Virus record (IMG/VR): IMGVR_UViG_3300038558_000079
Span: 1-64,000 of that record
DNA: 64,000 nt
Origin: a virus
Direction: 5' to 3' (one strand)
Of this stretch, positions 17,945 to 64,000 are shown one piece after another (position 1 is the first letter of the stretch; each line of letters starts with the position of its first letter). The position numbers and the translations under genes were made by a program. The notes under the pieces are model-generated. The model was not told the DNA's origin. It did no database searches and worked only from the letters and a program-made list of their open reading frames with translations.

Positions 17945-18022
17945 TTTATCCCCGGCTGGCTTGACTGTTGTTCTTATTGTAGATTATAATAGATAAACCA
18001 ACAAAAGCCAGTGAGGTCGAAA

Positions 18023-38366: not shown

Positions 38367-41300
38367 GCACTTATCAGTTTCACAAGCAACTAGTACATTA
38401 GGTAAATCAACGGTGTCATACTTCAGGAGCGCATCTTCAAAATTCTTAATAGAACGCCGCCGTCTCACACCATCTACGAGAGTGTTGTAAACCTCTTCAG
38501 AGATAGGTTCAAATGGCATCCTAGGGAAAGTTTGTTTACTCTCAAACCGCGCTAGTAGCGCTGCTGAGATATATCCTTCGTCATCTTGAATTGCTTGATA
38601 GATGGCATTTCCCAAAGGCTCTATCTCAGCTTCTGTGAATTCCAGAGTGCTACTCGTATTGTGCCCCACATAATGTTTCTGGACTTGCATCATGAAGTCG
38701 AATTGTGCCAATGCTGAAAAATTCCCTACATCTATATCTGCAACACCCACTAAAGTAGACCATGGTGCAGCTACAGGAATCTCTACCAACCATTCAGTAC
38801 ATCTGGGGTCATAAGGATCATCCAGTAGGTTCCCAGATTCATCACGGCTAGATTGTGAGGGGATGACAGTATACCCGTAATCGATACAAGCCAGAGCGAC
38901 CGGATTGTCTCTGGCAAAGGTAATCCGACGTATGTACCAGGTTCCCTTTGGAGGATGCCACCCTGGTGAGCTATTTGATAGTAGCGATTGTGTTCCGCTA
39001 GGTTTTACGGTAGTACACCGATTAGGAGTTTTGAGATTATGACGTTTGCAGTAATCTGCCACGTCATTCTCTACAAACTTTTTCCATTTCTTGAGACACC
39101 GTACCTCTACATCATGAAAGGTGTCACTCAAATATACACCCGTCTCAGTTTCACCCCATTTACTAGCACGTCCTGCTTCCCACCAGCGAAGCCAATCAAC
39201 ACCGAAAAGTTTCACAAAGAAATCAAAAACCCCAGTCATTCCCACCCCTACAATGGGGTCAAGTTCTCTGGATTCTCTCAACTTCTCATCAACAAATTCG
39301 TGGTGTAGTAATGAACATGCCCATAAGCTTGCTGCTTTAAAAGCACTTTTTTGTTCCTCAATATCAAAGGGGTCTATCTGCGACAGGTGGACTTCTGACA
39401 AGTTGCACAAGTTGTCTTGTAGGATTATCTCACCACATGGATTCAGGCCATAGATATTCATCCGATAATCAATATCATCATCGCTAGAAGCAAAACTTCT
39501 CAGATACTCTTTAGCATCAGTAGGATTGGAGTTATAAAGTCTCAAGAATTCTACCTTCTTTTCACTAGTATCCAGTAAATCTACATTGCTACGTGCGATC
39601 GCCTCTGGAGCATACTGTATTGCACCTTCGCCTGAATAATATTGGCTTCTCACAGCTTCAATACACTCAGCTTGTGTAGGTTTCTTATGAAATACCCTAG
39701 TGTGATTTGCCATTCTCAGGGCATCTTTATCGGGGTCAATTGTCCAATTGCCATCTGAATCTACTTTCCAAAGATTTTCCTTAATCTTGTAGGAATCGGG
39801 GTCATTATCTGAAAATTGGCGCATTCCGGCACTATTAGATACCAACAATCCTTCACACACAAATTCGTGTATGCTGGCAACTTCAATATCGAAAGTATGC
39901 GCTGTTCTTACTTCGTGTTCTATGGATTTAACCTTAACAGGCACTAAATCGGTTGTAGTTGGAACTAGTCTTTTTAATGTTGTGACAATGACCTGTTCTT
40001 GATGACCACCATACCTGTAGCGATAACTACTTACCGTGGGTTTTACCATCTCAACCGGGAACCCGTGGTCTTTAAAAGACTTAGGGGTTTCTTTTTTATG
40101 GCTTAAATAATGTAAGGAATGCGTTGTTAAGAATGCAGAAGTTGCTTCAAAGGCATTTTGCCCAACAGTTACCAATTCCCCTTCCCATTTGTTAGTGCGT
40201 TTCCTTAATGAGGAACACAAACGTGTAGTAATTGCTAGGGATGAATAAAGAGCTTGTACCTGTCTGAGAAAATCTTTATGTGTTGATGTTACTAAAACAC
40301 CTTGCGAGTGACACCCATCGGCATCGGCTAACCCAGCTAAATATGCTTCGCGAATTTCCTTAACTCCCATCAAAATACAATCGGGTATTGACATTGAAGT
40401 AAAAGGACGCTTGAAGTTGCTAAAATACTCGTTAAAGGATTTACTGTTGAACTGTAGCTCAAACGCTTTACTTTTGCGTTGTTCGGGTGTTGCAAGAGAG
40501 TAGTCATTAATCCCAAATTCACATGCCACGCTGATTAGTTGCTCAAGAATTTGTGGGTGTTGTTCAGGAATACTAAATCTGACATTTGTACCATCCGAGC
40601 CAACACATCCATTCCCATGTAAGTAGCCTAAGAAATACGCTACTTTGTTAGTTAACGCTGGTATGGTGACGGTTTTTTTGTTTCTGGTTGATTGATTTTT
40701 GAATTCTGGTAATTCAGTGGGGATACCCGGTATAGACTGAGGGACAAAAACCAAACGATCTCCTGGTTTTAAATCTTTAGCTTTTACCATTTTATACCCA
40801 CCATAAAAATCACTTAATACTGCGATTTTATGTTCTGAAGTACATTCCAAAAACCCGTCTTCTGTTTTAATTCGAGACAACGTTTGCACACCTTGATCGA
40901 AAAAGTTAGTAACTGGGTAAAAACCCTTACTCGTTAATACGCGGTCTCCAATTCGGATTTTTTGGATTGGTACTAATCCTAATTGTGTATGAACCAATGA
41001 CTCACCAGGTAAACAGCGACGCACGTTACCCGATACTATTACTAATGATGGCTCATCAATTAACAGACAACACTCAGCACTGTTCAGCTTACGTCCTACA
41101 GCACCATTGAGAATTTTTACAATACGCGGGTATAGCTGAGGTAGTAATGTCGGATTAGCAATTCCACCGAACCCCTTTAACTTTTCACCTTGTTGTCGTA
41201 TCCCGCTAATGTCTATCTCTACCTCTATATCACCATCACCAGCTAGCAGGTTATCAGTTGCTAATTGGAGAAGGCTTAGATAGCTATCACACCAACCTTC

Positions 41301-41807
41301 ACGAGAATCACCAACTAGAAATAGGTACTTCCTGTCACCTACTACTTTTACAAAAGTCCTTTCAGTTCTAGCTTTAGAACTGCCAAACTCCCCTGTGACT
41401 TTCACATTAATAGTGTTGAGAACCGGCGGTAACTTCTCTATATATCGAGGTTCAATAACAGCGCCAGTACCACACCCTTGCATGGTAAGATTCATCATTA
41501 ACTCGAAAGCTTTTAGGGTATCTAGGTTAGATGATGAGCAATTATAAGCGCCATAGAAGTTTTTTGGAACCTTTACCCAGTCAGTTCCTCCTACCCAGAG
41601 CCAACGACCCGATGGTAAACTCTTAAGAGCTAGTGCGTTACTGTAAAGGAGGTGCTTTTCGTCATCAGTTAACTTGCCTAATTCGGCAATTCCGTGAGTG
41701 ATTCTCTCACAGGTATCTTGCCAATTTTCGCGGGTGTTATCTGGTTTAAGTCTTGAATAGGTACGCGAGAAGACCGGAGCCGCGCATGGTGCATTATTGG
41801 GAAACAT
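38358..41807 (-). CDS. nrdJ: Class II (B12-dependent) ribonucleoside-triphosphate reductase with intein
   Basis: 1149 residues including an intein (C265-N658). Extein features: YNCSSSNLDT with C90, NPCGEII active-site loop, and C-terminal redox pair C1142/C1147 (VACETDKCLI). The spliced sequence rejoins SGNVRR to SAGMRQFSDNDPD. It reduces ribonucleotides to deoxyribonucleotides using adenosylcobalamin, feeding phage DNA synthesis. No separate small subunit is needed. Overlaps the upstream 41794-42363 gene by 14 bp. Confidence 0.9.
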   Translation of the reverse strand: MFPNNAPCAAPVFSRTYSRLKPDNTRENWQDTCERITHGIAELGKLTDDEKHLLYSNALALKSLPSGRWLWVGGTDWVKVPKNFYGAYNCSSSNLDTLKAFELMMNLTMQGCGTGAVIEPRYIEKLPPVLNTINVKVTGEFGSSKARTERTFVKVVGDRKYLFLVGDSREGWCDSYLSLLQLATDNLLAGDGDIEVEIDISGIRQQGEKLKGFGGIANPTLLPQLYPRIVKILNGAVGRKLNSAECCLLIDEPSLVIVSGNVRRCLPGESLVHTQLGLVPIQKIRIGDRVLTSKGFYPVTNFFDQGVQTLSRIKTEDGFLECTSEHKIAVLSDFYGGYKMVKAKDLKPGDRLVFVPQSIPGIPTELPEFKNQSTRNKKTVTIPALTNKVAYFLGYLHGNGCVGSDGTNVRFSIPEQHPQILEQLISVACEFGINDYSLATPEQRKSKAFELQFNSKSFNEYFSNFKRPFTSMSIPDCILMGVKEIREAYLAGLADADGCHSQGVLVTSTHKDFLRQVQALYSSLAITTRLCSSLRKRTNKWEGELVTVGQNAFEATSAFLTTHSLHYLSHKKETPKSFKDHGFPVEMVKPTVSSYRYRYGGHQEQVIVTTLKRLVPTTTDLVPVKVKSIEHEVRTAHTFDIEVASIHEFVCEGLLVSNSAGMRQFSDNDPDSYKIKENLWKVDSDGNWTIDPDKDALRMANHTRVFHKKPTQAECIEAVRSQYYSGEGAIQYAPEAIARSNVDLLDTSEKKVEFLRLYNSNPTDAKEYLRSFASSDDDIDYRMNIYGLNPCGEIILQDNLCNLSEVHLSQIDPFDIEEQKSAFKAASLWACSLLHHEFVDEKLRESRELDPIVGVGMTGVFDFFVKLFGVDWLRWWEAGRASKWGETETGVYLSDTFHDVEVRCLKKWKKFVENDVADYCKRHNLKTPNRCTTVKPSGTQSLLSNSSPGWHPPKGTWYIRRITFARDNPVALACIDYGYTVIPSQSSRDESGNLLDDPYDPRCTEWLVEIPVAAPWSTLVGVADIDVGNFSALAQFDFMMQVQKHYVGHNTSSTLEFTEAEIEPLGNAIYQAIQDDEGYISAALLARFESKQTFPRMPFEPISEEVYNTLVDGVRRRRSIKNFEDALLKYDTVDLPNVLVACETDKCLI
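39834..41015 (-). other. Intein with LAGLIDADG endonuclease in nrdJ
   Basis: 394 residues, from C265 (CLPGESLVHT, block A) to N658 (CEGLLVSN, block G), with S659 as the next residue. Two LAGLIDADG motifs: YFLGYLHGNGC (about 391-401) and YLAGLADADGC (about 489-499), both with an acidic or polar catalytic position (N in the first, D in the second). The usual penultimate His is Ser. Full size and no frameshift, so splicing and homing may work. Confidence 0.9.
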
Positions 41808-47101: not shown

Positions 47102-47431
47102 GGTCTTATGTCTCTTTTTGCTTTACTGTGTCCATAATAATTCAAATCTTCTAAGGTGTCAAGTGGTGTCTGAAAGAATTTTTAGGTGATTTCAAAACTT
47201 GGTTCTCAGAATCGCTACATACCTTACTGGTATTAACTCTCAGCTTCCGACATGTTGTTTTCAATTACTATATAGGATAGAACATGTCGGAAGCCAGAAG
47301 GTGTACAGAGAGAGGGATTTAGGGATTTTTATCAGATTTAATGCAAAGTTATTCATTGGACTACTATATGCGATGATGTACGTTACACTATATCAGTACC
47401 AGATTTAAACTTTACTAATACCTACTGAGAC
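47102..47431 (-). repeat. Leader-promoter module, copy 4, likely the original
   Basis: Minus orientation. Starts immediately after the tape measure stop (GGTATTAGTAAAG), palindrome arms 47295-47281 (GGCTTCCGACATGTT on minus) and 47256-47242, GAGAACCAAGTTTTGA, then promoter TTGACA (47162-47157), N17, TATTAT (47139-47134). As the 4783 copy carries tape-measure remains, this position is the best candidate source. Confidence 0.85.
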
Positions 47432-50400
47432 TTAAATACCGTGTGTAGCTCGATATGATGGCGAATTTAACATTCTGTCAGATATGTACTTAGCACCTTG
47501 TTCAGCACCCTGTTGAGCCGCTTTCCGAGCCAAGTCTTCACCCTGAGATTTAGTCAGGTACTCAACTCCATTAATGACTTGTGTCTCCAGTTTGACATTT
47601 ATATCTTTAGGACGTGAAGCATTCTCTATAACCTTATCTGCACTTCCCCCATACTCGGTAGTTTTGGGGACATAGCCTACCATGCCACCATCATTGAAGT
47701 TTAGGATGTCAACACCACCCAGCTTGTCAAGATTCTGAGTTTGGGCTAAATTGAGTACACGCTCACCATGGGTTAGAGCCGCGATCGCTACCCCACGCCC
47801 CCCATTAAGTGATTTCTCGCGATCGATAGCATCAATTATCCCACCCTGAGCATAGTTACCTACTATGCCACCATTCCAGAAAAAACTACCTAGTAAAGAG
47901 CTAGCAATACCTACAATTCCCCCTAAACCACCACCGCCAACCATCCCACTAACACTAGCAAGAATACGTCCTATTCCGCCCCCACCACTGTTCTTACCAT
48001 CACCTGAGAATAAACTACCAATCCCACTTACGATACTTCCAAATCCACCTTTACCACTGAAAAAACTACCTAGTGCATTAGTGATAGGACTAAGAGCATC
48101 GGGTGCGCTTTTGATGATTCCTACGGGGACTGGATTCGCGCTATCAACTTTACCAGTGAATCCTGAGAATGTAGACGCTAGGAAGCTTGTAGTGGAATCT
48201 TCTTTGCCACCAAACATACTACCTAGAGTGCCATTATTCAATCCCCCGAAAGTATTACCATTTACTACATTTACATACACAGGTAACACCGGGGTAGTAC
48301 CCAGTTCACTACCGCCGTCTAATAGCGATAAAGGGTTAGTATCCCCACTATCGCCTTGTTCAAACATCCCACCTTGCCCTTCATTCTTGTTACCACCCAG
48401 TAAACCACCAAACAATTTCTCCACTAGGTAGTTACTAGCTATCTCAGCGACTGAACCTAGTATGGAGTCCATTAATCCGTTGAATAACTCCTCTATGCTT
48501 TGACCACCCTTAATGATGCCAGCAAAGAATCCCTTCAATCCTGTTTGTACAGTATCTATAACTGGCTTGAAGGCGTTAAAGTTATCCTTAACAGTGTCAA
48601 GTTTAACCTGGTTAATCTGCTCTAAGTTCTGTCTTAACTTGTCAGCTTCTATAGCACCAACTTGTGTTGTTCTGATGAATTCTTCGAGTTCTATCTTTTG
48701 CCCTCTATAAGCACTTTGTTGTTGTAATATTGCACTGTCACGTTGTAATGTGCGTGCTTTATTGGTCATACCACGGTTAGAGTAGAAGCTAGCTTGAGTC
48801 TCTAAGAGTTCTACCTGTGAGCCTGATACACGTTGCGATATCGTCTCTGTTCTTTGAGCTAGCGCTTTATCAAATTCCCCCTTAAGGTTATCAAGTGTTA
48901 AGTTGTTAAGTTCTCGAATTCTTAACTCTAATTCTGCTATTTCTTCTTGAGACTTACCAGTTGAATTGGCGAATTCCTTCATGTCGAGTATCTGTTTCTC
49001 AACACTAATCTCAAGTTCTTTCTTGTCAACCTCAAATTTTAACTTTATCGGGTCACCTTGTTGTAGTCCCAAATTTATCGCTTGTGTAGTAGTATCAACG
49101 ATTTGCTTCTGATATTGTAACTCCTGTTCTTTAATGCTTAGAATAACCTTTGATTGTGATATCTGACTAGCAAAAGCAGTCTGTTGTGCTTGTGCATTTA
49201 TGTTCTGAATTTTAACGTCATATTCACTCTGTTTCTCAGCATTAAGTTTTGTAATTTCTTCAGGCGTTCTTTTCCCTTCAAAACCCGCTTGTTCAATTGC
49301 AGCTAACTCTTGTGCTAATTGCAGTTCAGCTTCGCGCAATGCAACTCGCTTCTCTAATTCCCCGATAGCATTATTGGCTAATTCGGGTGATAGTGGGTTA
49401 GTCTGTGCAAGTGTCTTTAATTGTTCAATCCGGACTTTATCATTAGCAATCTCAGCTTGTACCAATTCCTGTCTGGCTTCCCTATCCCGTGCTTCACTCT
49501 CACGTAGGAAAGCTAACTTAGCATTTTCAGTTTTCTGTTTAAGGGTAACGTCTAATATCTTCTTACGCTCTCCAATTTCAGCACGTAATCTGTCAGCCTC
49601 TTCTTTGGTATACTCCTTAGCTTTTTCCTTGTCTTGGATTCCCTTAAGTTGTTTCTCAAGATTTAACTGTTCTTCTCTAGCACTTATAAGCGCTTCTAAG
49701 TCTGGTATGCCCTTCACATCGGGTGAAAATGGCGCTGTACTCTTTAGTTGTTGCAATTGGTCTAATTTAGCCTTCAAGGTGTCGATACTCGCATTCTCGA
49801 TATCAAAGCTAGCCTGTTGCTTGCGTGCCTTTTCTTCAGCAGCGAAGCGGTCATCTAGTAGCTTTTTAGATTCCTCACGCCCCTTGCGTACATTTTCTAA
49901 CCCTATGGTTAATTTCTTGAGTTGGTCTTCACCCTCTGTAACCGCACGATTGAGAATATTCTTACCGTCATCTCCCAAAACACCCGTGGTTAGTGCGGTT
50001 CGTAATTGCTCTCTAAGGTTCTCTTTAATAGTCGGGTCATCTATGAGCTTCTGTACCTTCTCACGCATCTCAGGAGATACAACACCTCCTTTACTGAGAA
50101 GTACCCTAGCAGTACCTATCTGTGATTCTATCGCTCTCTTTTGTTCAACAATACTATTTTCTAGTTCTGTGTACTTAGTCTCTAATTGTCGTTGTTCTTG
50201 TTGTCGTTTCTGTTCATTATCTAAGGCTCCTTTGTATTCCAAGTTAGTATCAGTGACTTGATTACTCAAGCTGCTAACCTTAATCCCGTTTTGACGTAAC
50301 TCTCTCTCTAAATCTAGAAAGGCTTTATTGCTAGCTCGTAATGCATTGGCGGTATTTTGAGCGGCTTCATTACTAGCTTTCTGACGTGCTAATTCTACTT

Positions 50401-53400
50401 GACGATCGCGTTGTTGTTCGGCACGTCCGGTGACATCTGATATAGCAGTATTGCCTCTAGTCGCTATACTACCTGGTGTCCAGACGGTTGGGACTGGTGT
50501 GTTTGCTACTTGAGGTATTTGTACATTTGCGGTATTATTAGGAGTGTTTTTCTGTTGTGTAGGTAATCCCCCCTTCAGATAACTCACTAATTGATCTGCT
50601 AAACCCGGATTCCGCTTCCACCCATCATCTACACCTTGCCAATTTGAACCACCAAGTTTATTTGCTTGCATCCATCGAATAAGATCAGCGCCATCTTTAA
50701 TGCGACCCGACTGAACAGCCTCGATAACTTTACTACCGTAATCGCCAATCCCTTTCTGTGAATTAGGTAAACGACGTTCACCAGCTAATATTTGCCCAAA
50801 GAAGTTCTGGTATTTCTCAGGAGTATTGATTATTTCTTTGTGATAGGCATTATTAAATTGTCCAAACCCTTGCATATTGTTGCCTGTACCACCTTTATAG
50901 GTGTAGAAAGCACGGCGGTTTGTACCCTTCTCAAATGCTTCAGATCCACCTATACCTAATGCAAGCACTAACCTCCCACGACCTTCAGCAGTAGACGGGT
51001 CAAAATATTTATTCTGACTTAATTGACCACCCAATTCGTTCAGAGCCTCGTACCCTTTGCCTAATTTTGGAGCGCCACCTTGATTGACAACCCTCTGGGG
51101 TATATTGGGTGAGACAGAAGTATTTCTCCCCTGTAGCTGAGAAACAACATCATTACTTGCAGATGTAATTTGTGAACGGTTTCGTGTACTGTCGCCTTGG
51201 TTTTTATAAGCAGTAATAATTACTTGCCTACCGTTAATATTGGCAAGTCCTACATTTCCCGTAACCCGGCTATTATTACCTATTTTTCCCCCTGATTCAC
51301 CACTAAAGCCAAAATTCCTAGTTTGTCCTAAAGCCGCCCTTGCAGTATCCGCAGCACCACCTTGATTAATTTGCAAATTTCTCATTGCTTTTGTTACATC
51401 GGCTGGTGTAGACGTGTTGCCAAAAGCATTAGTAGCACCAGGGATACTCAAATAATTCCGAATTTGAGTCCCTGTAAAACCTCGTTTTTGTGCTTGTGCT
51501 GTAGCCGCTTCTGTACCACCCAGTATGCCAACTAAAGCGTTAAAACTTGTGTTATCAGAATCACGAAGCATACGAGTCATTAAATCTCGTATAGAAACCT
51601 TCTGACCGGCTTGTATTGAGGAGCCTTCAGCTACCTGGTTTTTCGCAATAGTCACACTTTGGTCTAATGATACTTTTCCCTCTTTAATTGCAGCATGTAT
51701 CAAATCGGCGGCAATTAACTTTATAGTTGACGCTGGTGAACTTGGGGCTTGATTTGCATTATATGTACCTAATATCTCTCCACTTTTTACATCTTGTACC
51801 AAGAGAGAGTTTAGCCCATATTGACTTGCTATTTGTGAAGCATTAATGCCTTGGCGTTGAGATTGATTCTGTTTTACTTGTGTTGCACTTCCACCGTGAT
51901 TATGCCCATCACCAGGATGATGTTGTTCAATTTGCCCTTTTTGTGCTGAACTTAAACCTCTACCATTTCTACCTGCTAAGAACTCAGTAGGGTTAACATT
52001 CTTCCCATTAATCCATGTTTCGTAGTGTAAATGCGCCCCCGTACCAATCCCCGTTGAGCCAACTTTACCAATCTTGTCACCAGCATTTAATTTTTGTCCT
52101 TCCACCACATCATAAGCCGACAAGTGGAAAAACTTATGCTCAATTTTACGACCATGCTCATCGATTGACTCGACTACAACATATTTACCAGCGCCACCAG
52201 CCTGATACTTGACACCAGTAACTACCCCTGCCATGGGTGATACCACTTGTGTCCCTTCACCATACCCGTAATCTTGCCCACGGTGCATTCGTGTTTGTCC
52301 AGTTACTGGATGCCGTCTCATCCCCCAAGGGCTAGTTTTTCTACTTTCGGCTTGTGCTGCGGTAACACCTGCTATCGGAAAGACTGGTTGGCTTGCGTTC
52401 CCTACGGGTGGTTTTTCACCTATACCTAAAGCATTCTGAACAAAACCAATACCTTGCTGTACAACATTACCAGCAGTCTGCATTGCACCTTGTCTAAAGC
52501 TAACGACGCTCTGGGTTACACTTTCAAGTTGTTGACCCCAGCTATTAAATATTTGTCCAATGATATTTAGAATGGGGATATTGTTAGCAAAAGTGCTAAA
52601 CCAATCCACTGTATTCTTAATAATTTCCTGAATGCTAAGAGGTAGTGAATCCAGGGCTACCTTAAGCTCGTTCTCAATCACTCCACCAACATTACTGATC
52701 TCAGTGCCCCAATTAATAGTAGCTGCTGTCACATTGCCAGTTGCCTCTAAAGATGCGAATAGACTATCATTTGTAGCAATAACGGCATCATTATTACTAT
52801 TGATACTATCGGTGTTAGTCTCGATCGCAAAACCTAAATCAGAAGCTGTAAAAGTGGTATTAAGTAGTTCTGAGCCTAATCCCTGAGTTGCATATATCCC
52901 ATCTTCTGTAGTAGCTACTGTCTGCTGGATAGTATCGCCAAAGTCCAGACTACCTAACGTTACATCTTGAAATGCAGACGTTAGGTCATTTGTAGCACTC
53001 TCACTATCCTTTATAGTGTCTTTAGCCTCTAGTAAGCCATTATTGAAAGCCTTAGTGATATCAATAAATTTATTATCTATCCCTATCTTACTCAAGTCTA
53101 ACTCTATCGGGATTGCTGGGATATCAATACTACCTTTAGCTGAAATACCAGGTAATTGTCGGCGTAATTCCTCACCCTGTCTTAGGGAATCTTCAAAAGC
53201 ATTATTAGCCTGTAATGCAGCACTTCCTACATCAAACTGTTTATCGGCGGCTTCTGAGAGTTGTTGGATACTTTCTATTACCGAATCTGCAAATTGAGAT
53301 ACTATATTATCCTGAAACCCAGAAATAGAAGTTTTGATATCGGTAGCATAAGACTGTATTTTTAACTGGCTAGTTTGACGTTGTGCCTCAAGACTAGATT

Positions 53401-56400
53401 CTGCAAACTGTCTAGATGCACTACGGTAATATTCTTCTATTTGTTTGTTTAATTCGACTAACTTTTGATTAAATTCATACTTACCTTGTTCTACTCCAGC
53501 TTGTAGGTTAGAAATTTCTACAGAACGCTCTTGAAGTGCTGCATACTGGTCAATAACATACTTGTCATTAACTCTCTCACCTGCTTTTTCTGATATAGTC
53601 TTAAGTTCAGCGCGTCCGGTATTCTCAGTAATACCATAGGCTTGTAGTGTATTCTGAGCATCCTTATTCTGCAACAGCGCTTTAGTCTGTGCTTGTGCAT
53701 CAAGTAAACGCTTAATTTTTGCCTCTTGCTGTTGAATATCAAGTTCGCTTAAACCAAATTGCAACTCCCCCTGAGTCTTGGAATTAGTGTATAAGCTGGA
53801 CTTTAAAGTATTTCCTGCAACAGTAGCCTTATCTTCAGCATCAGCTAATTTATCAACTACACCTTGTATGTTTTTCTGCATTAATGAGAAAGCATTAACA
53901 GATTCGCCAACAGCGCGATTAAATTTATCTTGTGCTTTCTGTGCTGACGTTAGATCGCTTTCTAGTCCTGCTAGTACATTCTTATATTGCGCCTGATTCC
54001 TACCAGGTTCATTGGCTAATTTTTGATATTTCTCAATCTCCTTTTTGAGCATATCAACATTAGTCTGCATATTGGACTGTAATATTCCAATAGGTTTAGA
54101 TATTTTTTCTCTCGCCTCTAGTATTTTTGTTTGTTCATCATCAATAACTTTAAGTCCAGCCTTATCTTGAGGATTTATAGCTACTAATGCCGCGCGTCGT
54201 GTCTGTATCTGTCTGAGTTGGTCATCATACTGCTTTAATTGTCCCAACTCTCTAACACCTTGCCCCTTGGTTCCTAAGAGGCTTAATGCTTCTGAAGTTG
54301 TAGCATTAACACCTAAGCTTAAGTCAGATGTGGCATTAATGTTATCTCCCAACTTCTTGTCTTCATAGGTTGAACCCACTCTACCACCTGACAGTTTTTT
54401 AAGTAAGTTTGCAGGCGACTCGATTAAACCTGTAACTGCTTTCCCGGTTCCAAATCTTAACTTATCAAACCAGTTAGCATCAGCTTTAATTTCCTTGGGT
54501 AATAACGCACCTATCCCCATTGCATCTAGCAAGGATTCATCGCGTACTAGCTTAGTAGCTTTAAATTTTTCGGTTTCCCCTCTACTTTCTGCTAGCGCTT
54601 CCCTGTACTTTTGCAAACTCTCAGTAGCGGTATCGGCAAAGTTCCTAGAATCTCCAGAGGCATCCTTGAAAGCAGCACTAATGCCTTCAAATACTTTCAT
54701 CCCTACTTCGATTACTACGAACATAGTTAGCATAGGTGCGAGCGCTGACAGCAATGCCCTAGCACCCGATGCTAATCCTATAAATCCCGCAACACCATTG
54801 ATTAGCGCCGCTTTACCAAATGCCCTAACTCCAATAGCACCTCTAGTAAAATTAGCACCAATGTTAGAAATTCCATTTTTCTGTAGGCTTAGTAGTCCAC
54901 CATTTAACGCTGACAATCCACCTTTCGCATTATCCAGCATAGCAACGCCGAAGTTCTTAGCACTTGACAGGACATTACTAGCACCCGATCTTAGAGATTG
55001 TACCGGGTTAGCTCTAATGTTCTGTAACGTGTCTCCTATCCCGTCTACTAGTTGTGTGGCCTTAAGTTTGTTATCACCATTTCCTAGTATTTTCTGGAAT
55101 GTTCCCATAGCGGCACTTGCTGCACTCGCAACACCCGGAATTTTCATTAACGCAGCGGTTAACGCTCCAAAAGATTGGAATAGGTTAACTCCAGCCATTA
55201 CAGCGAGCGCACGAAAAACACCTAGCAGAAAATCTGCGTTTTCAGTCACAAACTTGATAGCTCCGCTACCTAGTGCTAATAGCAAATTTTTGATTGGTAA
55301 CAGTGTCTTGCCAATTGTTGCTTGCATCTGAAATAACGCATTATTGAAATTTATTAATGCAGACACTGAACTATTAGCCGCTCCTTTGACACCCATCGCA
55401 GTTTCGGCGCTTAGTTGTTGAGCAAACTTAGGTAGAAAATCTTCTGACAGTAACTTACCTTGACTCATCATCTTGTCTAGAGTTTGTGTTGTTACACCTA
55501 TCGCTCTAGCTGCAATGTTGAACGCACCAGGTAAAACTTCTCCCAATTGTTGTCTTAATTCCTCAGCGCTTACCTTGCCTTTTCCAGCCATTTGTTGGAC
55601 AGCAGCAAAAACTCTACTCTGTTGTTCTGAATTCAAGTCATAAACAGTGCTAGCTTGTGATACACCACTAAATATCTTCTGTGTCTGACTTTCCAGTGCG
55701 GTGTCCCGCGTTGCAGCCCCTAATGAAACATATCCTTCCATTGAGGACTTCATGTCGGTTCCCAAACGCGCCGTTTCCCCCCTAACAAATGCCAAGCTAT
55801 TAGCAGCCTCTTGAGCATTGTTGCTGATAAATAGGAATCTACGCTCTAAAGATTCCATGGCTATAGCGGCTTCAATTGATGCGGGTGCAATGCTGGTTAT
55901 TATATTCTGGAAAAATTGTACCCCTTTAAATGCCAGGAAACCACCTACTAAACCTTTAAGACCATCTATCAAAATGCCAGCAATACCGCTTCCTTTAAAT
56001 AGCGCATCAAAGAATGTATTTACTTGTGGTACTGCAACATTGAGAGACTTGAAGATATCTTGAGTTGCAATATTTAACTCTTGTAACTCTTGGGTTTCTT
56101 CAGGGGTTATCGTAGTCTTGCGAGTTAATTCTAAGGCTCTATTATTGTTAGCTACTAATTTATCTTTATAGACTAATAATCTATCCGATTCTTCTTTGTC
56201 CCCTCTTAATTCCGCTTCATTAGCCGATACTACCAGGTTAGCAATTAAGGACGGCGTGTGCATCTTTAATATCTCTGTCTGTTTCCTAACCCTAGCTGCT
56301 ATGCCACCAAACAAATCTGCTAGTGCTACCCCAACAGAATTAGTAAATTTGTTTCCTGCGTTTTGTGTAACCTGCTGTACTTTCTCAGGACTAATAAGAG

Positions 56401-59400
56401 GAGAAGTATTAACTACATTACCTTTTAATTCTTGTTTGTCTAAAAGTTTTGCATTTTCCAAATAAACTTTTAGGCTTTCTAATTCGTGTTGTGACAGTTC
56501 TAACTCATCACCAGACTGTATGCTTGCTTCGGCTTTTGCCAGAAGTTGCTGGTACTCTACCTGTCTTTCCTCAAGGTATTTTTGAGCCGCTTCAAATTGT
56601 TGCTTCTCATGCTCATCGAAGCTAGCCATAGCTTTATCTATATCGCTAGTTGTTCGATTTGCTGAGGCATTATAAACATGAGACATAGCAGCAGCAGCAT
56701 TGGCATTGGCTTTATTACTCTGGCTTATACTGCGTCTGTTCTCTAGGTTGCCTACAATACCTTCTACTTTCTGTTTGCCAGTTTCTACCATTTTTTCTGT
56801 AAAACTTGGCACAGTATTTACAGCGTTAATACCTTTATTAAACCCTTCTACTACAAAGCGCCCTAAACGTTCAAATACCTTAGATGGACTTTGTATCTCC
56901 AGTTCTTTTTTAGCCGACTTTGTAACACCTTGCGCTAACTCAATAGATGCAAGTTCAGCACTTGGTATCGACTTTTCAATACCTTGACTTAACCCTGTTC
57001 CTAAGTTCTCTAACCCATAACTTTGAGCAAATTTAGCATCCCAATCATCGATGTCTCCAGTTTGCACATCAGGAGTAATATCTTCTAAGTCAATATTTGC
57101 CGCTTCCTGTGCAAGTAAGCTATCCCAGTCATAATCATCTATTTGTTTTGCATAATCATCAACAACTACCTTTGTCCCTTGTTCTATTGATTCCGCTATC
57201 TTATCAGGGACAAAGCTTAAATCCTTGGATAACTTGGGGTTTATAGGAGTTTCTTTAATTACCTGTTGATGGATCTCAGGTACTTTAATTTCAGGAATTT
57301 GCTCAACTATCGGGGATTCAATCTCAGGTATTTTAATCTCAGGCAATTCAAGCGAATCAGTCCCAATATCACCGAGGACAAAACCCTCTATATTTTTAAT
57401 AATACCACTTAGCTGTAAGCTTGCACCTTTAAGATATTTCTTAACACTATCTTCTAAGTCTCGACTCAATAATTCCTGAATTGTTTGGTAGTCATCTTGG
57501 ATTTCCTCAAAGCTAATCTGAGGAATTTCCTCTTGTTTGATAGCATTCAACGCACCCCGCGCCGCTGTAATTCTACCCTGTAGATGCGGCTTAAGCGCAT
57601 CAGGTGTGGTAACTAACTGATCGGTCTTAGAGATGATACTTTTTTGGTGTGGTGTAAGTTGTGGAATTGTTGACCTGAGTTTTTTGAGGTCAACGTTGTT
57701 AACTAATCTTGCCGCTATTTGTTCCTTAGTACCACTTGAACCAACACCATGGCTTTTGGCTATATTTTTTAGCTCATCCTTGCTGGTGTAACTACCTGTA
57801 AGTTGCTTCAGTAAATCCTCACGGCTGCCACCTAATAACTCGGTGTGTACCTTGTTAGCAAATTGGCTAGCACTGAATGTTGTCTTTTCAATTAGAACCT
57901 GTAAGTCTTTATATAATTTATCCAGTTCATCTTGTGGCAAAATATCTATATTTTTAAGTCTCTCTAGATAAGGCTCAAAAATCTTATATAGATTATCAAA
58001 TTTTGCTTCTAATAATTTCCCAGTCCCAGATGTGTCATAGGTAGCGTTCTTATTGTTCTCTATTAGTTGTTTATATTGCTCTACTTGTATTTTGCCTAAA
58101 TCGTTTAAGAGTTTACCTCCTCCGCTACCTGCTAGTTGCCCAATATTGCGGAGGCTTGTCTTTCTTTGGATATTAGATATTATTTTCTCTCTATTTCTGT
58201 TCGTAAAAACGTAAGCGTCTTGTTCTATTTCTCTAGAAAATGCTTCTCGTTCTGTATCCCCCTTAAAATTACTTGCCGATCCTTCCACCCTTCGCGCCAA
58301 CTTTGGATCTAGTTCGTAATCTTCTACCGTCGGCTTGAGTAATTTACGCGCCGATTTTAGCTCTTGGAATAAATCTATTTTACCAAAATCGCTTTGCATC
58401 CCATGTGTAAGTTCATGGATCAATGTCTCTAAATTTTCTGGTGTTGCATTCCCCTTAATGAGTTGTGCCAATACATCTTTCTGTACTTTTAAAACGTTAT
58501 TCTCGCTAGAATAAAACCCCGTTGCCTTTATCCCCTTCTTTTTATAATCTTCAATTTCTTCATCCGAAAAAGCCTTCAAGGTAGGAATTTGCTCAGGACT
58601 TATACTAATTCCAGCTATAGCCGCAACTTCATCTATAACATCCTGATACTGTTTAGGTTGTTTTTTGACTTTCTTGGTTGTACCACTAGTTTTTCCCCCC
58701 CGCTCTAGTGCTTTAATAGCATCATCAGCTTGCTTCTCATACACCGTAACCTGAGCATTCATGGCTTCCATTAACTTCAATGCAGAAGCCATTTCTTCTT
58801 TACTGCTAAAGTCCAAAGTCCTGAGTTTAGCAAATAATTTCTTATATTCCGTCCCTATATTTTTAACATTTCCAGTAGAAATAGTTTTCTGAATTTCCGC
58901 TATATTATTCCTACCTCCAGAATTCTTAACTACAGTTGCTTCTGCTAAGGGCACTGATGCTTCTGCTCTCTGTATGAAAGCTAACTCTTGTTTGTTTAAC
59001 CTTTCAAGATCGGCCTTCACATTAGTGATTAAATTTTCTAATTCTTTCCTGTTAAGAACTTCTTTTTCGATAAGAGCTTTTGCTGCTAAGATGGTATCAT
59101 CATCAGAATCAGATAGTGCATTCTTAAGTGCCTCTTGATATTTCAATACTTTCTTATTAGAGGCTTCCAAGACTTTCTCTGCTTTAGTAAGTTTGGTGTT
59201 CAAGTCTTCACGTTGCTTACCAACAGCTTCTTTCTTCTCACTTATAGCGAGGGTGCGTAATATTCTAGCACCTTCTAATCCTTTAGCACCTTTTACACCG
59301 ACTAGATCTAAAAGATGTTCTAATTTTTGTTTCTCTCCACCTAACTTTTCTACCCTCTCCCTGACAGCCTCTATCTGCTTTTCTACTTCGCCTAACTGTT

Positions 59401-60985
59401 TCGTTTTAGCTTCTAAGTTAGCACCAAGCATTCCCTCTTTTTCCGCATCAGTGCTACCTCTGAATTGCGTTAATTTTGCCTGATTTTCAGATAGTACATA
59501 TTTGCTCGCATCTTCACGCTTACCTAAAGACTTTAAATCTTCAATCGCAAAAAGCTTCTGATTACGTTCTGTTTCATTTAACCCCTCAGTGACTTCCTTT
59601 TCCTCGAAAGCGGCTATCTTTTTGGCAGTCAACGCTTTCTGTTTCTGTATCTCAATTAAGCCTGCTTTCTGAGTTTGAATGGCATTTTTAAAATATTCTT
59701 CGCCACGCTCAGTTACACTTTTCCCCATATAGTCAGCTAAATTCCGCTCTAACTGACTTCTGTAAACTTCTAATCCCGCTAACTCATCCTCACTTTGTTT
59801 TCTCTGGACTTCATTTAACCCTTCTCTACTAAGTGATTCCTCATACTCTATTCCTAATTCTTTAGCGGCGGCTTCATTACGTCCGGTTTTAGTAACTCTC
59901 TTGCGTCCGCTTAATAATCTTTTTTCAATCTCAATTTGGTCTTTGCCGATAATAGATTGGACACGATCTATTGATTCATCTATTGTCTTTGCCAGACTTG
60001 ATTCGCTATACCCTTTCTGTATAGCCCGTACTACGGGTGCTTTTGTTATTGCCTCTCTTATCCCTGGAACAATTCGCTCGAAAATTGAACGTCCTACTAA
60101 ATCCAACGAGCCAATCTTAGAAGATAGTGCAGACTCTATAGAATCTGTTAATCCTTCAGAAAACTTAGAAGTAATCATTCTTCCAAAGTTTTCTGACGCT
60201 CCTACAAATATGTTGTCAAAAATACCTCTATTCTTGGTTCTTATTTTCGATGCGGTTGATTGAACTCCTGAACTGTCACTCTTAGTTGCTGAAGTGGTTG
60301 TAGTTGTTCCTGGAGTGCTAGTGTAACTTGGTAATGTAGCTGTTCCCGAAGTGTTACCCGGACTTGGTAGTGTGGCTGTTCCCTGTGGTATGTGCTGCGA
60401 TAACCCTGGTGTTACTGGCGATCGCGATACAGTAGGCGTTAAGAAGCTTGTAGAACCTACTCGGTTGCTACTTTTTTGCTGTGAATTAGTTATATTCTTA
60501 ACAACATTACTAATTTTATCAGATGCGGTATCAAAACTTTTCTCAATACCGTCTTTTAAGGTTACACTTATCTTCTCCCCTTCGCTTTGCTTTATTTCTG
60601 CCTTTACCTTTACCTTTGTCTCTAATTGTTCTGACAATCCTACAATCTGTTTTTTAAAGCTAGCCTCATTAATTGGATCCGTTGTAGTTCTGATTCTTAA
60701 TGGATTCTTCTCAAGCCACGCATTAACATCTTTAACATGTGTACGTTTGGATTCTATATGCTTATTGAGTTGAGTTAATGGGACATCATCAACTTTAACT
60801 TTAACTATTAAGTCTTGGCTTAGTGCTTTTTGAAGACGTTGCCGTTCCTGTGCAATATTGGCATTATCAAAACTAACCCCAAGCTTGACAACTGGAGTTT
60901 TCACACCTGACAACGACCCCAGTCCCTGATAGAAACCACTGAGATCTAACTTTGTGCCAATATCAACTGAGGCAATCCTAACCAT
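47432..60985 (-). CDS. Giant tape measure protein with several enzyme domains
   Basis: 4517 residues, very large for this class. Order: N-terminal coils; zinc-peptidase motif HELTH at 857-861; SAP-like segment (about 1062-1095, SKDELKNIAKSHGVGSSGT); tape measure core (about 1700-1880, AGKGKVSAEELRQQLGEVLPGA); hydrophobic stretch (about 1950-2090); M23 peptidase (about 2885-2998) with H2901, D2905, H2985, H2987; serine beta-lactamase-like domain with S3086-x2-K3089, SDN 3143-3145 and K3234-I-G; lysozyme-like region (about 3326-3475, GIGGSEAFEKGTNRRAFYTY); long coils; Gly-rich end. It sets tail length, and the enzyme parts could open the cell wall. The start codon lies in a hairpin. Confidence 0.85.
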   Translation of the reverse strand: MVRIASVDIGTKLDLSGFYQGLGSLSGVKTPVVKLGVSFDNANIAQERQRLQKALSQDLIVKVKVDDVPLTQLNKHIESKRTHVKDVNAWLEKNPLRIRTTTDPINEASFKKQIVGLSEQLETKVKVKAEIKQSEGEKISVTLKDGIEKSFDTASDKISNVVKNITNSQQKSSNRVGSTSFLTPTVSRSPVTPGLSQHIPQGTATLPSPGNTSGTATLPSYTSTPGTTTTTSATKSDSSGVQSTASKIRTKNRGIFDNIFVGASENFGRMITSKFSEGLTDSIESALSSKIGSLDLVGRSIFERIVPGIREAITKAPVVRAIQKGYSESSLAKTIDESIDRVQSIIGKDQIEIEKRLLSGRKRVTKTGRNEAAAKELGIEYEESLSREGLNEVQRKQSEDELAGLEVYRSQLERNLADYMGKSVTERGEEYFKNAIQTQKAGLIEIQKQKALTAKKIAAFEEKEVTEGLNETERNQKLFAIEDLKSLGKREDASKYVLSENQAKLTQFRGSTDAEKEGMLGANLEAKTKQLGEVEKQIEAVRERVEKLGGEKQKLEHLLDLVGVKGAKGLEGARILRTLAISEKKEAVGKQREDLNTKLTKAEKVLEASNKKVLKYQEALKNALSDSDDDTILAAKALIEKEVLNRKELENLITNVKADLERLNKQELAFIQRAEASVPLAEATVVKNSGGRNNIAEIQKTISTGNVKNIGTEYKKLFAKLRTLDFSSKEEMASALKLMEAMNAQVTVYEKQADDAIKALERGGKTSGTTKKVKKQPKQYQDVIDEVAAIAGISISPEQIPTLKAFSDEEIEDYKKKGIKATGFYSSENNVLKVQKDVLAQLIKGNATPENLETLIHELTHGMQSDFGKIDLFQELKSARKLLKPTVEDYELDPKLARRVEGSASNFKGDTEREAFSREIEQDAYVFTNRNREKIISNIQRKTSLRNIGQLAGSGGGKLLNDLGKIQVEQYKQLIENNKNATYDTSGTGKLLEAKFDNLYKIFEPYLERLKNIDILPQDELDKLYKDLQVLIEKTTFSASQFANKVHTELLGGSREDLLKQLTGSYTSKDELKNIAKSHGVGSSGTKEQIAARLVNNVDLKKLRSTIPQLTPHQKSIISKTDQLVTTPDALKPHLQGRITAARGALNAIKQEEIPQISFEEIQDDYQTIQELLSRDLEDSVKKYLKGASLQLSGIIKNIEGFVLGDIGTDSLELPEIKIPEIESPIVEQIPEIKVPEIHQQVIKETPINPKLSKDLSFVPDKIAESIEQGTKVVVDDYAKQIDDYDWDSLLAQEAANIDLEDITPDVQTGDIDDWDAKFAQSYGLENLGTGLSQGIEKSIPSAELASIELAQGVTKSAKKELEIQSPSKVFERLGRFVVEGFNKGINAVNTVPSFTEKMVETGKQKVEGIVGNLENRRSISQSNKANANAAAAMSHVYNASANRTTSDIDKAMASFDEHEKQQFEAAQKYLEERQVEYQQLLAKAEASIQSGDELELSQHELESLKVYLENAKLLDKQELKGNVVNTSPLISPEKVQQVTQNAGNKFTNSVGVALADLFGGIAARVRKQTEILKMHTPSLIANLVVSANEAELRGDKEESDRLLVYKDKLVANNNRALELTRKTTITPEETQELQELNIATQDIFKSLNVAVPQVNTFFDALFKGSGIAGILIDGLKGLVGGFLAFKGVQFFQNIITSIAPASIEAAIAMESLERRFLFISNNAQEAANSLAFVRGETARLGTDMKSSMEGYVSLGAATRDTALESQTQKIFSGVSQASTVYDLNSEQQSRVFAAVQQMAGKGKVSAEELRQQLGEVLPGAFNIAARAIGVTTQTLDKMMSQGKLLSEDFLPKFAQQLSAETAMGVKGAANSSVSALINFNNALFQMQATIGKTLLPIKNLLLALGSGAIKFVTENADFLLGVFRALAVMAGVNLFQSFGALTAALMKIPGVASAASAAMGTFQKILGNGDNKLKATQLVDGIGDTLQNIRANPVQSLRSGASNVLSSAKNFGVAMLDNAKGGLSALNGGLLSLQKNGISNIGANFTRGAIGVRAFGKAALINGVAGFIGLASGARALLSALAPMLTMFVVIEVGMKVFEGISAAFKDASGDSRNFADTATESLQKYREALAESRGETEKFKATKLVRDESLLDAMGIGALLPKEIKADANWFDKLRFGTGKAVTGLIESPANLLKKLSGGRVGSTYEDKKLGDNINATSDLSLGVNATTSEALSLLGTKGQGVRELGQLKQYDDQLRQIQTRRAALVAINPQDKAGLKVIDDEQTKILEAREKISKPIGILQSNMQTNVDMLKKEIEKYQKLANEPGRNQAQYKNVLAGLESDLTSAQKAQDKFNRAVGESVNAFSLMQKNIQGVVDKLADAEDKATVAGNTLKSSLYTNSKTQGELQFGLSELDIQQQEAKIKRLLDAQAQTKALLQNKDAQNTLQAYGITENTGRAELKTISEKAGERVNDKYVIDQYAALQERSVEISNLQAGVEQGKYEFNQKLVELNKQIEEYYRSASRQFAESSLEAQRQTSQLKIQSYATDIKTSISGFQDNIVSQFADSVIESIQQLSEAADKQFDVGSAALQANNAFEDSLRQGEELRRQLPGISAKGSIDIPAIPIELDLSKIGIDNKFIDITKAFNNGLLEAKDTIKDSESATNDLTSAFQDVTLGSLDFGDTIQQTVATTEDGIYATQGLGSELLNTTFTASDLGFAIETNTDSINSNNDAVIATNDSLFASLEATGNVTAATINWGTEISNVGGVIENELKVALDSLPLSIQEIIKNTVDWFSTFANNIPILNIIGQIFNSWGQQLESVTQSVVSFRQGAMQTAGNVVQQGIGFVQNALGIGEKPPVGNASQPVFPIAGVTAAQAESRKTSPWGMRRHPVTGQTRMHRGQDYGYGEGTQVVSPMAGVVTGVKYQAGGAGKYVVVESIDEHGRKIEHKFFHLSAYDVVEGQKLNAGDKIGKVGSTGIGTGAHLHYETWINGKNVNPTEFLAGRNGRGLSSAQKGQIEQHHPGDGHNHGGSATQVKQNQSQRQGINASQIASQYGLNSLLVQDVKSGEILGTYNANQAPSSPASTIKLIAADLIHAAIKEGKVSLDQSVTIAKNQVAEGSSIQAGQKVSIRDLMTRMLRDSDNTSFNALVGILGGTEAATAQAQKRGFTGTQIRNYLSIPGATNAFGNTSTPADVTKAMRNLQINQGGAADTARAALGQTRNFGFSGESGGKIGNNSRVTGNVGLANINGRQVIITAYKNQGDSTRNRSQITSASNDVVSQLQGRNTSVSPNIPQRVVNQGGAPKLGKGYEALNELGGQLSQNKYFDPSTAEGRGRLVLALGIGGSEAFEKGTNRRAFYTYKGGTGNNMQGFGQFNNAYHKEIINTPEKYQNFFGQILAGERRLPNSQKGIGDYGSKVIEAVQSGRIKDGADLIRWMQANKLGGSNWQGVDDGWKRNPGLADQLVSYLKGGLPTQQKNTPNNTANVQIPQVANTPVPTVWTPGSIATRGNTAISDVTGRAEQQRDRQVELARQKASNEAAQNTANALRASNKAFLDLERELRQNGIKVSSLSNQVTDTNLEYKGALDNEQKRQQEQRQLETKYTELENSIVEQKRAIESQIGTARVLLSKGGVVSPEMREKVQKLIDDPTIKENLREQLRTALTTGVLGDDGKNILNRAVTEGEDQLKKLTIGLENVRKGREESKKLLDDRFAAEEKARKQQASFDIENASIDTLKAKLDQLQQLKSTAPFSPDVKGIPDLEALISAREEQLNLEKQLKGIQDKEKAKEYTKEEADRLRAEIGERKKILDVTLKQKTENAKLAFLRESEARDREARQELVQAEIANDKVRIEQLKTLAQTNPLSPELANNAIGELEKRVALREAELQLAQELAAIEQAGFEGKRTPEEITKLNAEKQSEYDVKIQNINAQAQQTAFASQISQSKVILSIKEQELQYQKQIVDTTTQAINLGLQQGDPIKLKFEVDKKELEISVEKQILDMKEFANSTGKSQEEIAELELRIRELNNLTLDNLKGEFDKALAQRTETISQRVSGSQVELLETQASFYSNRGMTNKARTLQRDSAILQQQSAYRGQKIELEEFIRTTQVGAIEADKLRQNLEQINQVKLDTVKDNFNAFKPVIDTVQTGLKGFFAGIIKGGQSIEELFNGLMDSILGSVAEIASNYLVEKLFGGLLGGNKNEGQGGMFEQGDSGDTNPLSLLDGGSELGTTPVLPVYVNVVNGNTFGGLNNGTLGSMFGGKEDSTTSFLASTFSGFTGKVDSANPVPVGIIKSAPDALSPITNALGSFFSGKGGFGSIVSGIGSLFSGDGKNSGGGGIGRILASVSGMVGGGGLGGIVGIASSLLGSFFWNGGIVGNYAQGGIIDAIDREKSLNGGRGVAIAALTHGERVLNLAQTQNLDKLGGVDILNFNDGGMVGYVPKTTEYGGSADKVIENASRPKDINVKLETQVINGVEYLTKSQGEDLARKAAQQGAEQGAKYISDRMLNSPSYRATHGI

Positions 60986-61608: not shown

Positions 61609-64000
61609 CTACCCTTTGATGTATTTCATACCCTTCGCTGCCACATCCTGACGTAATAACTTGAAGGCTAATTTACCGTCGGATAAGAGTGCATCGTCTT
61701 CACATCTTTGGTAATTTGCAAGTAGGTTTTGAATATAAAGGTATGGTGTGTCCACCGCTTTAAATTCTGGGGTGTATTCCTCACCCGATGCGTAGGTTTC
61801 TCGAATTCGTAGCATAGCAATAGTAACCCGTACCATATCTTCAAGTTCTATCTCTGTGAGATTGGTGTTACAGGCTTTGCAGAAAAACTGCAAAGTATTA
61901 GGATTTCCAAGGTCGTTCAATGGGAGTATCTCGTGCAGGGTGATCACCTCTTGAAAGTCGTCAAATACCTGCTTAGGTGTTAAAGTCTCATAATTATTAA
62001 GACCGCTGAGAATAGTCTCTAGAGTACGTCCTGTTGTAGATGCAATAGGTAAAGTATCGAGTGTCATTTGTGGTGTTGAGATTGCTAAGGTTTCTTCATC
62101 CATTATATCATCATTAGATTCTGTTACTACATCAGGTGTCTGATTGTATTTCCGGTCATATCCCGCTAATAAATTCTGACGTGTTACATCAGATAAGAAT
62201 TCAGAGGAAAAGCTGTATGTGTACTGCTTCCCCACTTTCTGAGACGTGAAACTATACCCCAACTTCTCCAATATCCAGGTAGCTAACTTCGCGGCTCTTA
62301 CATCGTTAGTGCCTGCTATTATCTTGGGGAAATTATCGTTAAATTCTGTAGCTAATTCATCCTTTATCTTCGCTGATACCTTATTGACTTTTAGTGCCCA
62401 TTCCTTTAATCCCGGCGTTGAGCTACTAAAAGTTAAGTTAGGATTCTCTAAATCCAATATAGACTCCAATTCCTGAATCTTGAGATACTTCGTTAGTGCA
62501 TGTACTTTATATCCCAGTAGCTTCACATCCTGTAAGCAAAATTCTAATCCTTCCTGGTAGTTTTTAGCATAGCGTTTTAACTTGCTGACATCTAGAGCAG
62601 GTACTAAGTGTGGGTTCTTGTAGAGAAACCAGAGTAAGTTAGCGTGAATTACTTCCCGGTAATTATATTTCCAGTGATACACCATGGATACAGTGCATTC
62701 TGGTTCTAGTATCCCGGTAGAAATGAGTATTTTTGATTTTGTTCCTTGTCGTTGTATTTCCGGGTCACAAGCCATCTGTTCAGCCGAATGAGCCGTTGCA
62801 TAGTCCGTAAAGATTGCCTCTACCGCTGCAACTTTCTCACATGATTCGAGCCGTGTCACTTCTATGGTTTCTTTGATTACTTCGTTGTACGAATTTTTGA
62901 ACCCGTCTGCAAATGTTATTTCATGACCTGCGGCTCTTAATTCGGCTACCATCACGTCGTAAAAATTAGCCCGTGCCCAATTCTGGTTCGCTACAAGTTC
63001 ATAATAGTACCAGCTATGCTTGGGCGACAAGGTAGGATAATCATCCCCTTCAAGGAATTTTTCCAATAACCCTATGAGCGCTTTACCATTAATGTAATCG
63101 GGGTTATCAGTCGCTGTGGAATCTGTAAAATTATTGGCTGTATGTTGCCGCAGCACTTCCTTAATAAGTTGGTCTGCTATCTCTGTTAAGTTGGACTCCT
63201 GACGCTTCTTATCAGCAATCACACCTTCTACCGTAACCGCCCCATGATACTTGCCCTTACTGGCGTATATATTCCAATCAGTGAGATGACGATCGCGTGC
63301 CATCTGCTGGAGGGATTCAATAGGAGTATTAACCGCAAAAAATAGACCATAAGCCTTCTGGAAATACACAGCATCAATCGATAACCCATTAGCTAATGTA
63401 GGCGAAAACATGAACAGATCCGGGGTCTTAGTAAGAATAGACTGATTTAAGTTATTCATCACGCTGCGTGCTTCATCGGTGCGTGATGAGTCGGAATCTA
63501 GCCGGATAACGCTCTTAGGTGTTTTTCCCTGAGACACTAAGGAATCCTGTGCTAGTGATTCTAGAGCCTGTAGATTTTCCTTACTATCTGATGCTACCAA
63601 CGCGGGTACATCAGACTTTACCAGTTGTGCTACTGTTGTCTCGAAAAAACTTGCCTTCTCCTTACCTGTTAATACCACATTTCTCTTTTTGGGTTTTGTG
63701 GTATTAATAAGTACTTTTACAGGTGTGTCTGGCATGAACTGTAGGACATACTTTATCGTACTTTTCCTCAATGTCGCATCACTAAGAATACAGCCGCCAT
63801 TATTGGCATTGGCTAATGCTAATAACTTACAGAGTGCAGATATATTCTCAGCACGCTTGAGACGATGTGTCTCTCCAGTGAGTAAGTGAATCAAACCTGA
63901 TTCACATTCATCTAGTACTAAATGGAAAGGTTGGTCGGTGTTGAATGTTGAGAGTTTGTGAAGTGAATCGTAACACAATCCAATCCGCTTAACACGTCCT
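61609..64000 (-). CDS. CyRepA1-like plasmid replication protein, 5' end cut by window
   Basis: At least 796 residues; the frame is open to the right edge (upstream of TTG 63978 it reads DVLSG), so the start is outside. GLCYDSLHKL, LVLDECESGLIHLLTG (Walker B-like DE), CILSDATLRKSTIKYV, MFSPTLANGLSIDAVYF and QQMARDRH (arginine finger) follow the helicase part of cyanobacterial CyRepA1 plasmid replication proteins. These act as initiator/helicase for plasmid replication. The C-terminal 500 residues are helical and less clear. Its presence beside phage genes is the main reason to call this a phage-plasmid. Confidence 0.65.
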   Translation of the reverse strand, partial: GRVKRIGLCYDSLHKLSTFNTDQPFHLVLDECESGLIHLLTGETHRLKRAENISALCKLLALANANNGGCILSDATLRKSTIKYVLQFMPDTPVKVLINTTKPKKRNVVLTGKEKASFFETTVAQLVKSDVPALVASDSKENLQALESLAQDSLVSQGKTPKSVIRLDSDSSRTDEARSVMNNLNQSILTKTPDLFMFSPTLANGLSIDAVYFQKAYGLFFAVNTPIESLQQMARDRHLTDWNIYASKGKYHGAVTVEGVIADKKRQESNLTEIADQLIKEVLRQHTANNFTDSTATDNPDYINGKALIGLLEKFLEGDDYPTLSPKHSWYYYELVANQNWARANFYDVMVAELRAAGHEITFADGFKNSYNEVIKETIEVTRLESCEKVAAVEAIFTDYATAHSAEQMACDPEIQRQGTKSKILISTGILEPECTVSMVYHWKYNYREVIHANLLWFLYKNPHLVPALDVSKLKRYAKNYQEGLEFCLQDVKLLGYKVHALTKYLKIQELESILDLENPNLTFSSSTPGLKEWALKVNKVSAKIKDELATEFNDNFPKIIAGTNDVRAAKLATWILEKLGYSFTSQKVGKQYTYSFSSEFLSDVTRQNLLAGYDRKYNQTPDVVTESNDDIMDEETLAISTPQMTLDTLPIASTTGRTLETILSGLNNYETLTPKQVFDDFQEVITLHEILPLNDLGNPNTLQFFCKACNTNLTEIELEDMVRVTIAMLRIRETYASGEEYTPEFKAVDTPYLYIQNLLANYQRCEDDALLSDGKLAFKLLRQDVAAKGMKYIKG

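Follow-up and report, generated by a model that had tools for sequence, protein, structure and literature searches.

A plasmid-type replication protein in a tailed cyanophage with a circular genome map

Whether a tailed cyanobacterial phage may be kept in its host as a plasmid is the question raised by the DNA analysed here, the first 64,000 bases (bases 1-64000, called the window) of the 90,554-base IMG/VR virus record IMGVR_UViG_3300038558_000079. A preliminary description of the window had read it as a probable cyanobacterial phage-plasmid.

Bases 1-130 were found to be identical to record 90414-90543 except for one mismatch, and joining the record at this terminal repeat gave a circle of 90,413 bp. 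The minus-strand gene that begins at 807 was found to read without a stop across the join (record 90330-90413 followed by 1-807), giving a protein of 296 aa.

1..130, no strand: terminal repeat at which the 90,413-bp circle is joined
1..807, minus strand: gene of 296 aa when read through the join, PD-(D/E)XK nuclease-like by a weak match (17 bits, under the cut-off)

The run of exact identity inside the terminal repeat was 126 bases, which is about the overlap of an assembly with k=127. With an identical run of this length, a circular assembly graph would fit better than a biological end repeat. The record is a complete genome, with a circular map, of a tailed cyanobacterial phage; a piece of chromosome with host genes on both sides, which the preliminary description had kept in view, was not found, as the record forms a circle. 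The dinucleotide composition predicts 0.27 copies of the HIP1 octamer GCGATCGC, and 26 were found, with sites scattered across the whole record in structural and replication genes alike, and the relatives of the replication protein were found to be mostly cyanobacterial, which together argue that the host is very probably a cyanobacterium. No DNA relatives of bases 20000-44999 were found among 50,697 phage records, and single-protein scans of IMG/VR found no close relatives. The large terminase subunit (TerL) was at most 49% identical to its IMG/VR relatives among the matches listed, and mainly the structural module was common to both.

The replication gene was open at the window edge; in the full record it was found whole, occupying 61609-65682 on the minus strand.

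61609..64000 in the window, to record 65682, minus strand: Rep, fusion of a Prim-Pol primase-polymerase and a CyRepA1 (SF2-like) helicase, 1357 aa

The claim of a CyRepA1-like replication protein, made from the incomplete gene with the reservation that the complete one might not be a Rep, was borne out. Residues 136-281 were found to match Prim-Pol (PF09250, E 3.7e-19), followed by a match of residues 494-1146 to the NCBIfam model CyRepA1 (NF042913) at 218.3 bits, the curated cut-off being 200 bits. In an alignment of 20 proteins (the window Rep and 19 relatives), the Walker A lysine/GxGK, DExE and QxxxRxR motifs were all intact in the window Rep. The Prim-Pol DxD was retained as well. The residue of Prim-Pol motif II is usually histidine, and was found to be replaced by glutamine in the window Rep and in most of the plasmid relatives. 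Judged by a score above the cut-off and by the kept helicase motifs, the window Rep belongs to the CyRepA1 family of Rep proteins. The tree of helicase cores left it unplaced.

The top database relatives of Rep were found to sit on plasmids, and the Prim-Pol/CyRepA1 fusion was found above the cut-off in four complete cyanobacterial plasmids. The CyRepA1 model also matched RepA in several phage-plasmids, namely VP58.5 (589 bits), VP882 (505), phiHAP-1 (359) and N15 (246). The cut-off was reached by none of the 44 IMG/VR phages found via the Prim-Pol domain, and the Prim-Pol neighbours L032-L086 were set aside as kin, being other phages without CyRepA1 above the cut-off. Nodularia phage 2AV2, which was presumably isolated as a lytic phage, was found to carry a CyRepA1 relative below the cut-off (134 bits). 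No iterons were found at rep. The CyRepA1 protein of pSYSA (Slr7037) is essential to this plasmid and enables a vector to replicate in a second cyanobacterium (PMC9978351), and no cyanophage with CyRepA1 was found described in the open-access literature searched. At the level of protein sequence, a plasmid-type replicon is thus shown in a cyanophage. Directly past the 3' end of rep, a MITE-like element was observed at 61063-61348, with 19-bp inverted ends (GTTTAAACGGAAGTACCCC / GGGTAACTTCCGTTTAAAC).

The genes for virion structure and packaging were found to be present, together with a polymerase and a reductase of the phage's own:

5140..8247, minus strand: tail protein (phrog_2871)
20747..22129, minus strand: portal protein (phrog_146), relatives in contigs G437 and G440
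22134..23669, minus strand: terminase large subunit (TerL)
23969..26716, minus strand: central tail fibre J-like protein
30060..30554, minus strand: head-module protein (phrog_1983), same-order homologue in contigs G437 and G438
30556..31467, minus strand: major capsid protein (phrog_264)
31481..32299, minus strand: virion structural protein (phrog_563)
32301..33470, minus strand: head maturation protease, DUF2213 type (phrog_530)
35082..38366, plus strand: DnaE-type DNA polymerase of the phage kind (phrog_405, 948 bits)
38358..41807, minus strand: ribonucleotide reductase (RNR), enlarged (phrog_367)
47432..60985, minus strand: 4517-aa tape measure protein containing a peptidase M23 and a beta-lactamase-like domain

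The DnaE, RNR, terminase, portal, capsid and tail genes listed in the preliminary description were found again, and its exonuclease was reduced to the weak PD-(D/E)XK match at the closure. A few of these genes were unusual in themselves. Compared with a relative of 774 aa (L028, 50% identical), the RNR has about 375 additional aa, which matched endonuclease/helicase profiles, so that this part is probably an intein with a homing endonuclease. In the tape measure protein, the peptidase M23 domain was found embedded together with a beta-lactamase-like serine hydrolase domain; a protein of this make-up would imply that the tail is very long and that the tape measure acts on the cell wall. A 572-aa ORF (44842-46560) was found to contain tandem repeats with a unit of about 130 bp at 45275-45770, and it probably encodes a repetitive virion protein. 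A thymidylate synthase-like domain was found fused to a PterinBD-DUF4346 domain at record 85370-86830.

DnaE, RNR and exonuclease belong to the usual replication equipment of phages and are no argument for a plasmid. The phage was also found to encode a thymidylate synthase-like gene, a RuvC-like resolvase and helicases, and this full set of its own fits a lytic programme and counts against a plasmid prophage. The genome may be that of a virulent cyanophage which recruited a plasmid-type primase-helicase as its lytic initiator, with a circular map due to permutation and terminal redundancy and with no plasmid prophage at all. The virulent cyanophage CL131 is circularly permuted (PMC6293099), so that a circular assembly is no proof of a plasmid, and the related helicase of Nodularia phage 2AV2 points the same way. 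Relatives of TerL were found in one of 386 cyanobacterial genomes, and no lysogen of the phage was found in any of them. Against a purely lytic phage, the Prim-Pol/CyRepA1 fusion was otherwise found in plasmids, and the strongest CyRepA1 matches among phages were plasmid prophages. A virulent life of this kind is a serious prospect, put at somewhat below an even chance.

Genes for maintenance were searched as well. The preliminary description had stated that there is no integrase, and a six-frame search of the entire record, which covered the tyrosine type (PF00589), gave no match; with the circular closure, the genome was found without a tyrosine integrase and not joined to a chromosome. Most ORFs longer than 150 aa were scanned as well and contained no recombinases other than IS200/IS605 genes, and no mobility genes besides their TnpA and TnpB were seen. 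In this one phage, the TnpB type was observed four times and the TnpA type at least twice.

12515-13813, 18011-19348 and 17540-17944: IS200/IS605 genes
record 81592-82794 and 86933-88630: IS200/IS605 genes

Partition genes, which are common and not universal in phage-plasmids, were looked for as ParA/ParB, so that a system of type II or III may be present. The presence of ParA/ParB, on which the preliminary description had left its reading to depend in part, was not confirmed: no AAA_31 (ParA) and no ParB_N (ParB) were found in six frames with working controls, and a motif search found no deviant Walker A (ParA), an absence which speaks for a lytic phage. Replication does not strictly depend on partition genes, as mycobacterial phage replicons replicate without parABS (PMC7157519). 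No repressor or toxin-antitoxin pair was recognised. A telomere phage of the N15 group was rejected, since protelomerase (PF16684) had no match in six frames with a working control, the longest near-loop-free palindrome had arms of 14 bp, and the closure lies inside a gene.

Large virus contigs with CyRepA1 were found by a search of IMG/VR with the CyRepA1 alignment. Three of them (G437, G438 and G442) were found to be about 95-98% identical along long stretches; the end of G437 continues within G438, and is linked back to the start of G437 by G442, from which the map of this lineage, pieced together by sequence overlap, is circular and about 100 kb in length. In G437, TerL, portal and capsid were recognised, the portal and capsid belonging to the families found in the window, and its head genes were found in the gene order of the window. 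Like the window record, the lineage contained CyRepA1, syntenic homologues of the head genes at 30060, 30556, 31481 and 32301, a portal, a divergent ribbon-helix-helix-like gene and genes of the RuvC-like and Dcm-like kinds, and neither tyrosine integrase nor ParB_N was found in the three contigs. Unlike the window, it contained no Prim-Pol fusion and no DnaE homologue was found, and its Rep branches with that of Planktothrix plasmid p3. This second lineage, with CyRepA1, a syntenic capsid module, a circular map and no integrase, supports a plasmid prophage.

Three further relatives (G440, G441 and G443) were found to combine CyRepA1 with tyrosine recombinases. They lend some weight to a temperate phage that integrates through transposition or an unrecognised recombinase, for instance one of the serine type, and needs Rep only once excised. 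The window record and the G437/G438/G442 lineage yielded no tyrosine integrase, and the scanned ORFs yielded IS200/IS605 genes as their only recombinases, so integration is considered quite improbable. G443 (L199/L217-L222, 117 kb, from an isolate genome) contained CyRepA1, two to three terminase-like ORFs, a tape-measure relative and integrases; a host-like dispersed repeat runs through half of it, so that the called borders of this virus record may include host DNA.

Next to rep, a ribbon-helix-helix-like gene (145 aa) was found at record 65787-66224, divergent from rep; the assignment is from the sequence pattern and the class is thus to be read as ribbon-helix-helix-like. A 79-aa homologue, likewise divergent from the rep operon, was found in G437 (36.7% over 60 aa, E 4.5e-5 among 11,507 small ORFs). 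Structure predictions were of low confidence for this protein (pLDDT 52) and for that of 79265-80098 (pLDDT 40). The presence of rep with a divergent ribbon-helix-helix-like gene in both the window record and G437 is the best argument that rep would be a regulated module rather than a stray gene.

Around the circle, 16 near-identical inverted-repeat elements were found, of the form CTTCCGACATGTT-(24 or 25 nt)-AACATGTCGGAAG with 13-bp arms.

940..990, no strand: element 1, CTTCCGACATGTT-N25-AACATGTCGGAAG, upstream of the nuclease gene
3364..3413, plus strand: element 2
4918..4967, plus strand: element 3
9361..9411, plus strand: element 4
11004..11053, plus strand: element 5
16610..16660, plus strand: element 6
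17258..17307, plus strand: element 7
19958..20008, minus strand: element 8, right arm degenerate
34859..34908, minus strand: element 9, separating dnaE from the structural operon
47244..47293, minus strand: element 10
record 66232, 71235, 75524, 79206, 83639 and 85193: the remaining six elements

Matches to the arms with up to 2 mismatches numbered 37, against about 1 expected, and all 16 elements were intergenic on a circle that is 83% coding. The AT-rich loop was found to contain a TATAGAT-like stretch, followed by a start codon about 110-145 nt downstream of many elements. A sigma-70 scan around one element did not rise above shuffles, and the exact pattern had no match in IMG/VR. The elements are probably operators or operator-promoters of one phage regulon; by analogy with N15 they may alternatively be centromere sites. 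The nearest precedents for dispersed operators are the C1 sites of P1, the stoperators of L5 and the repeats of the Nostoc phages A-1 and N-1. Dispersed intergenic inverted repeats of this kind recall temperate immunity as in P1 and L5, which weighs against a virulent phage. In A-1 and N-1, numerous repeat motifs between genes were proposed to act as stoperators (PMC4916379). A dispersed repeat of G443 (TTCCCCTAGAACA) was discarded as a counterpart, since most of its copies fall within ORFs and it is confined to one half of that contig, and it is therefore not comparable.

The inverted repeats also bear on the assembly. The phage is known from a single assembled record, in which a cyanobacterial plasmid may have been joined to a phage. 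The same inverted repeats were found on the structural and the rep sides, HIP1 sites run throughout the record, and the combination of phage genes with CyRepA1 recurs in other contigs, which makes such a chimera very improbable.

Among known systems, the phage-plasmids N15, VP882, VP58.5 and phiHAP-1 resemble the window in being tailed phages with a large RepA above the CyRepA1 cut-off and no integrase-based lysogeny. In contrast to them, the window phage was found to lack protelomerase and ParA/ParB, to be circular and not hairpin-ended, to contain an N-terminal Prim-Pol, to be about twice the size and to encode its own DnaE and RNR. The CyRepA1 helicase is shared with pSYSA, Calothrix Cal7716_p6, Nostocales pHT582-1 and the linear Nostoc plasmid pNPM9, whereas the CyRepA1 plasmids looked at had no virion gene set annotated. 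For pNPM9, a linear form and a possible origin as a phage remnant were described, a disrupted terminase being all that it keeps (PMC5987646); its record (L007, NZ_CP026691), which is circular per the database and linear per the paper, was found to contain Prim-Pol/CyRepA1 and a protelomerase-family gene, and it is possibly a cyanobacterial N15-like remnant. Microcystis phage Mic1 is likewise a long-tailed cyanophage (92.6 kb, circular record) with a proposed plasmid-like lysogeny, put forward on account of its ParABS (PMC7156551); unlike the window it has ParA/ParB, and it reached about 17 bits to CyRepA1. The Nostoc phages A-1 and N-1 share the many intergenic motifs and have a plasmid-related polymerase (PMC4916379); their motifs are asymmetric and their polymerase is DNA polymerase B, not DnaE. 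The statement that phage-plasmids are little described in cyanobacteria thus holds, not absolutely, in view of Mic1 (PMC7156551) and of linear Nostoc plasmids taken as phage remnants (PMC5987646). No plasmid records with both Rep and phage parts were found.

The phage-plasmid reading is therefore upheld in its cyanobacterial host, circle, virion genes, lack of a tyrosine integrase and plasmid-family Rep, and weakened by the missing ParA/ParB and by a circle that also fits a permuted lytic genome. That this tailed cyanophage with its plasmid-type replicon lives as a plasmid inside the host, as an extrachromosomal prophage, is plausible and put at about an even chance. On such a course, Rep would open its own origin and prime theta-type replication, as is thought for pSYSA CyRepA1 and N15 RepA, and this replication would keep the genome as an extrachromosomal prophage. 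The divergent ribbon-helix-helix-like gene would control rep, and a regulator acting on the 16 dispersed inverted repeats would keep the lytic promoters down; after release, the phage DnaE, helicases, RNR and thymidylate synthase would drive lytic growth. More tentatively, with the chances leaning against it, the window phage and the G437 lineage may form an undescribed class of CyRepA1 cyanophages, circular plasmid prophages without ParAB or integrase that have in common their capsid module and a ribbon-helix-helix-like regulator linked to rep, the window member being silenced via its 16 operators.

The presence of full-length CyRepA1 on virus contigs is a warning that plasmid/virus classifiers may split such elements. 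One replication family was found to link cyanobacterial plasmids, N15-type phage-plasmids and cyanophages. Prophages are rarely found in cyanobacterial genomes and the persistence of cyanobacterial phages without integration is poorly known; a plasmid-type Rep in independent cyanophage lineages offers a concrete and testable answer, the plasmid prophage.
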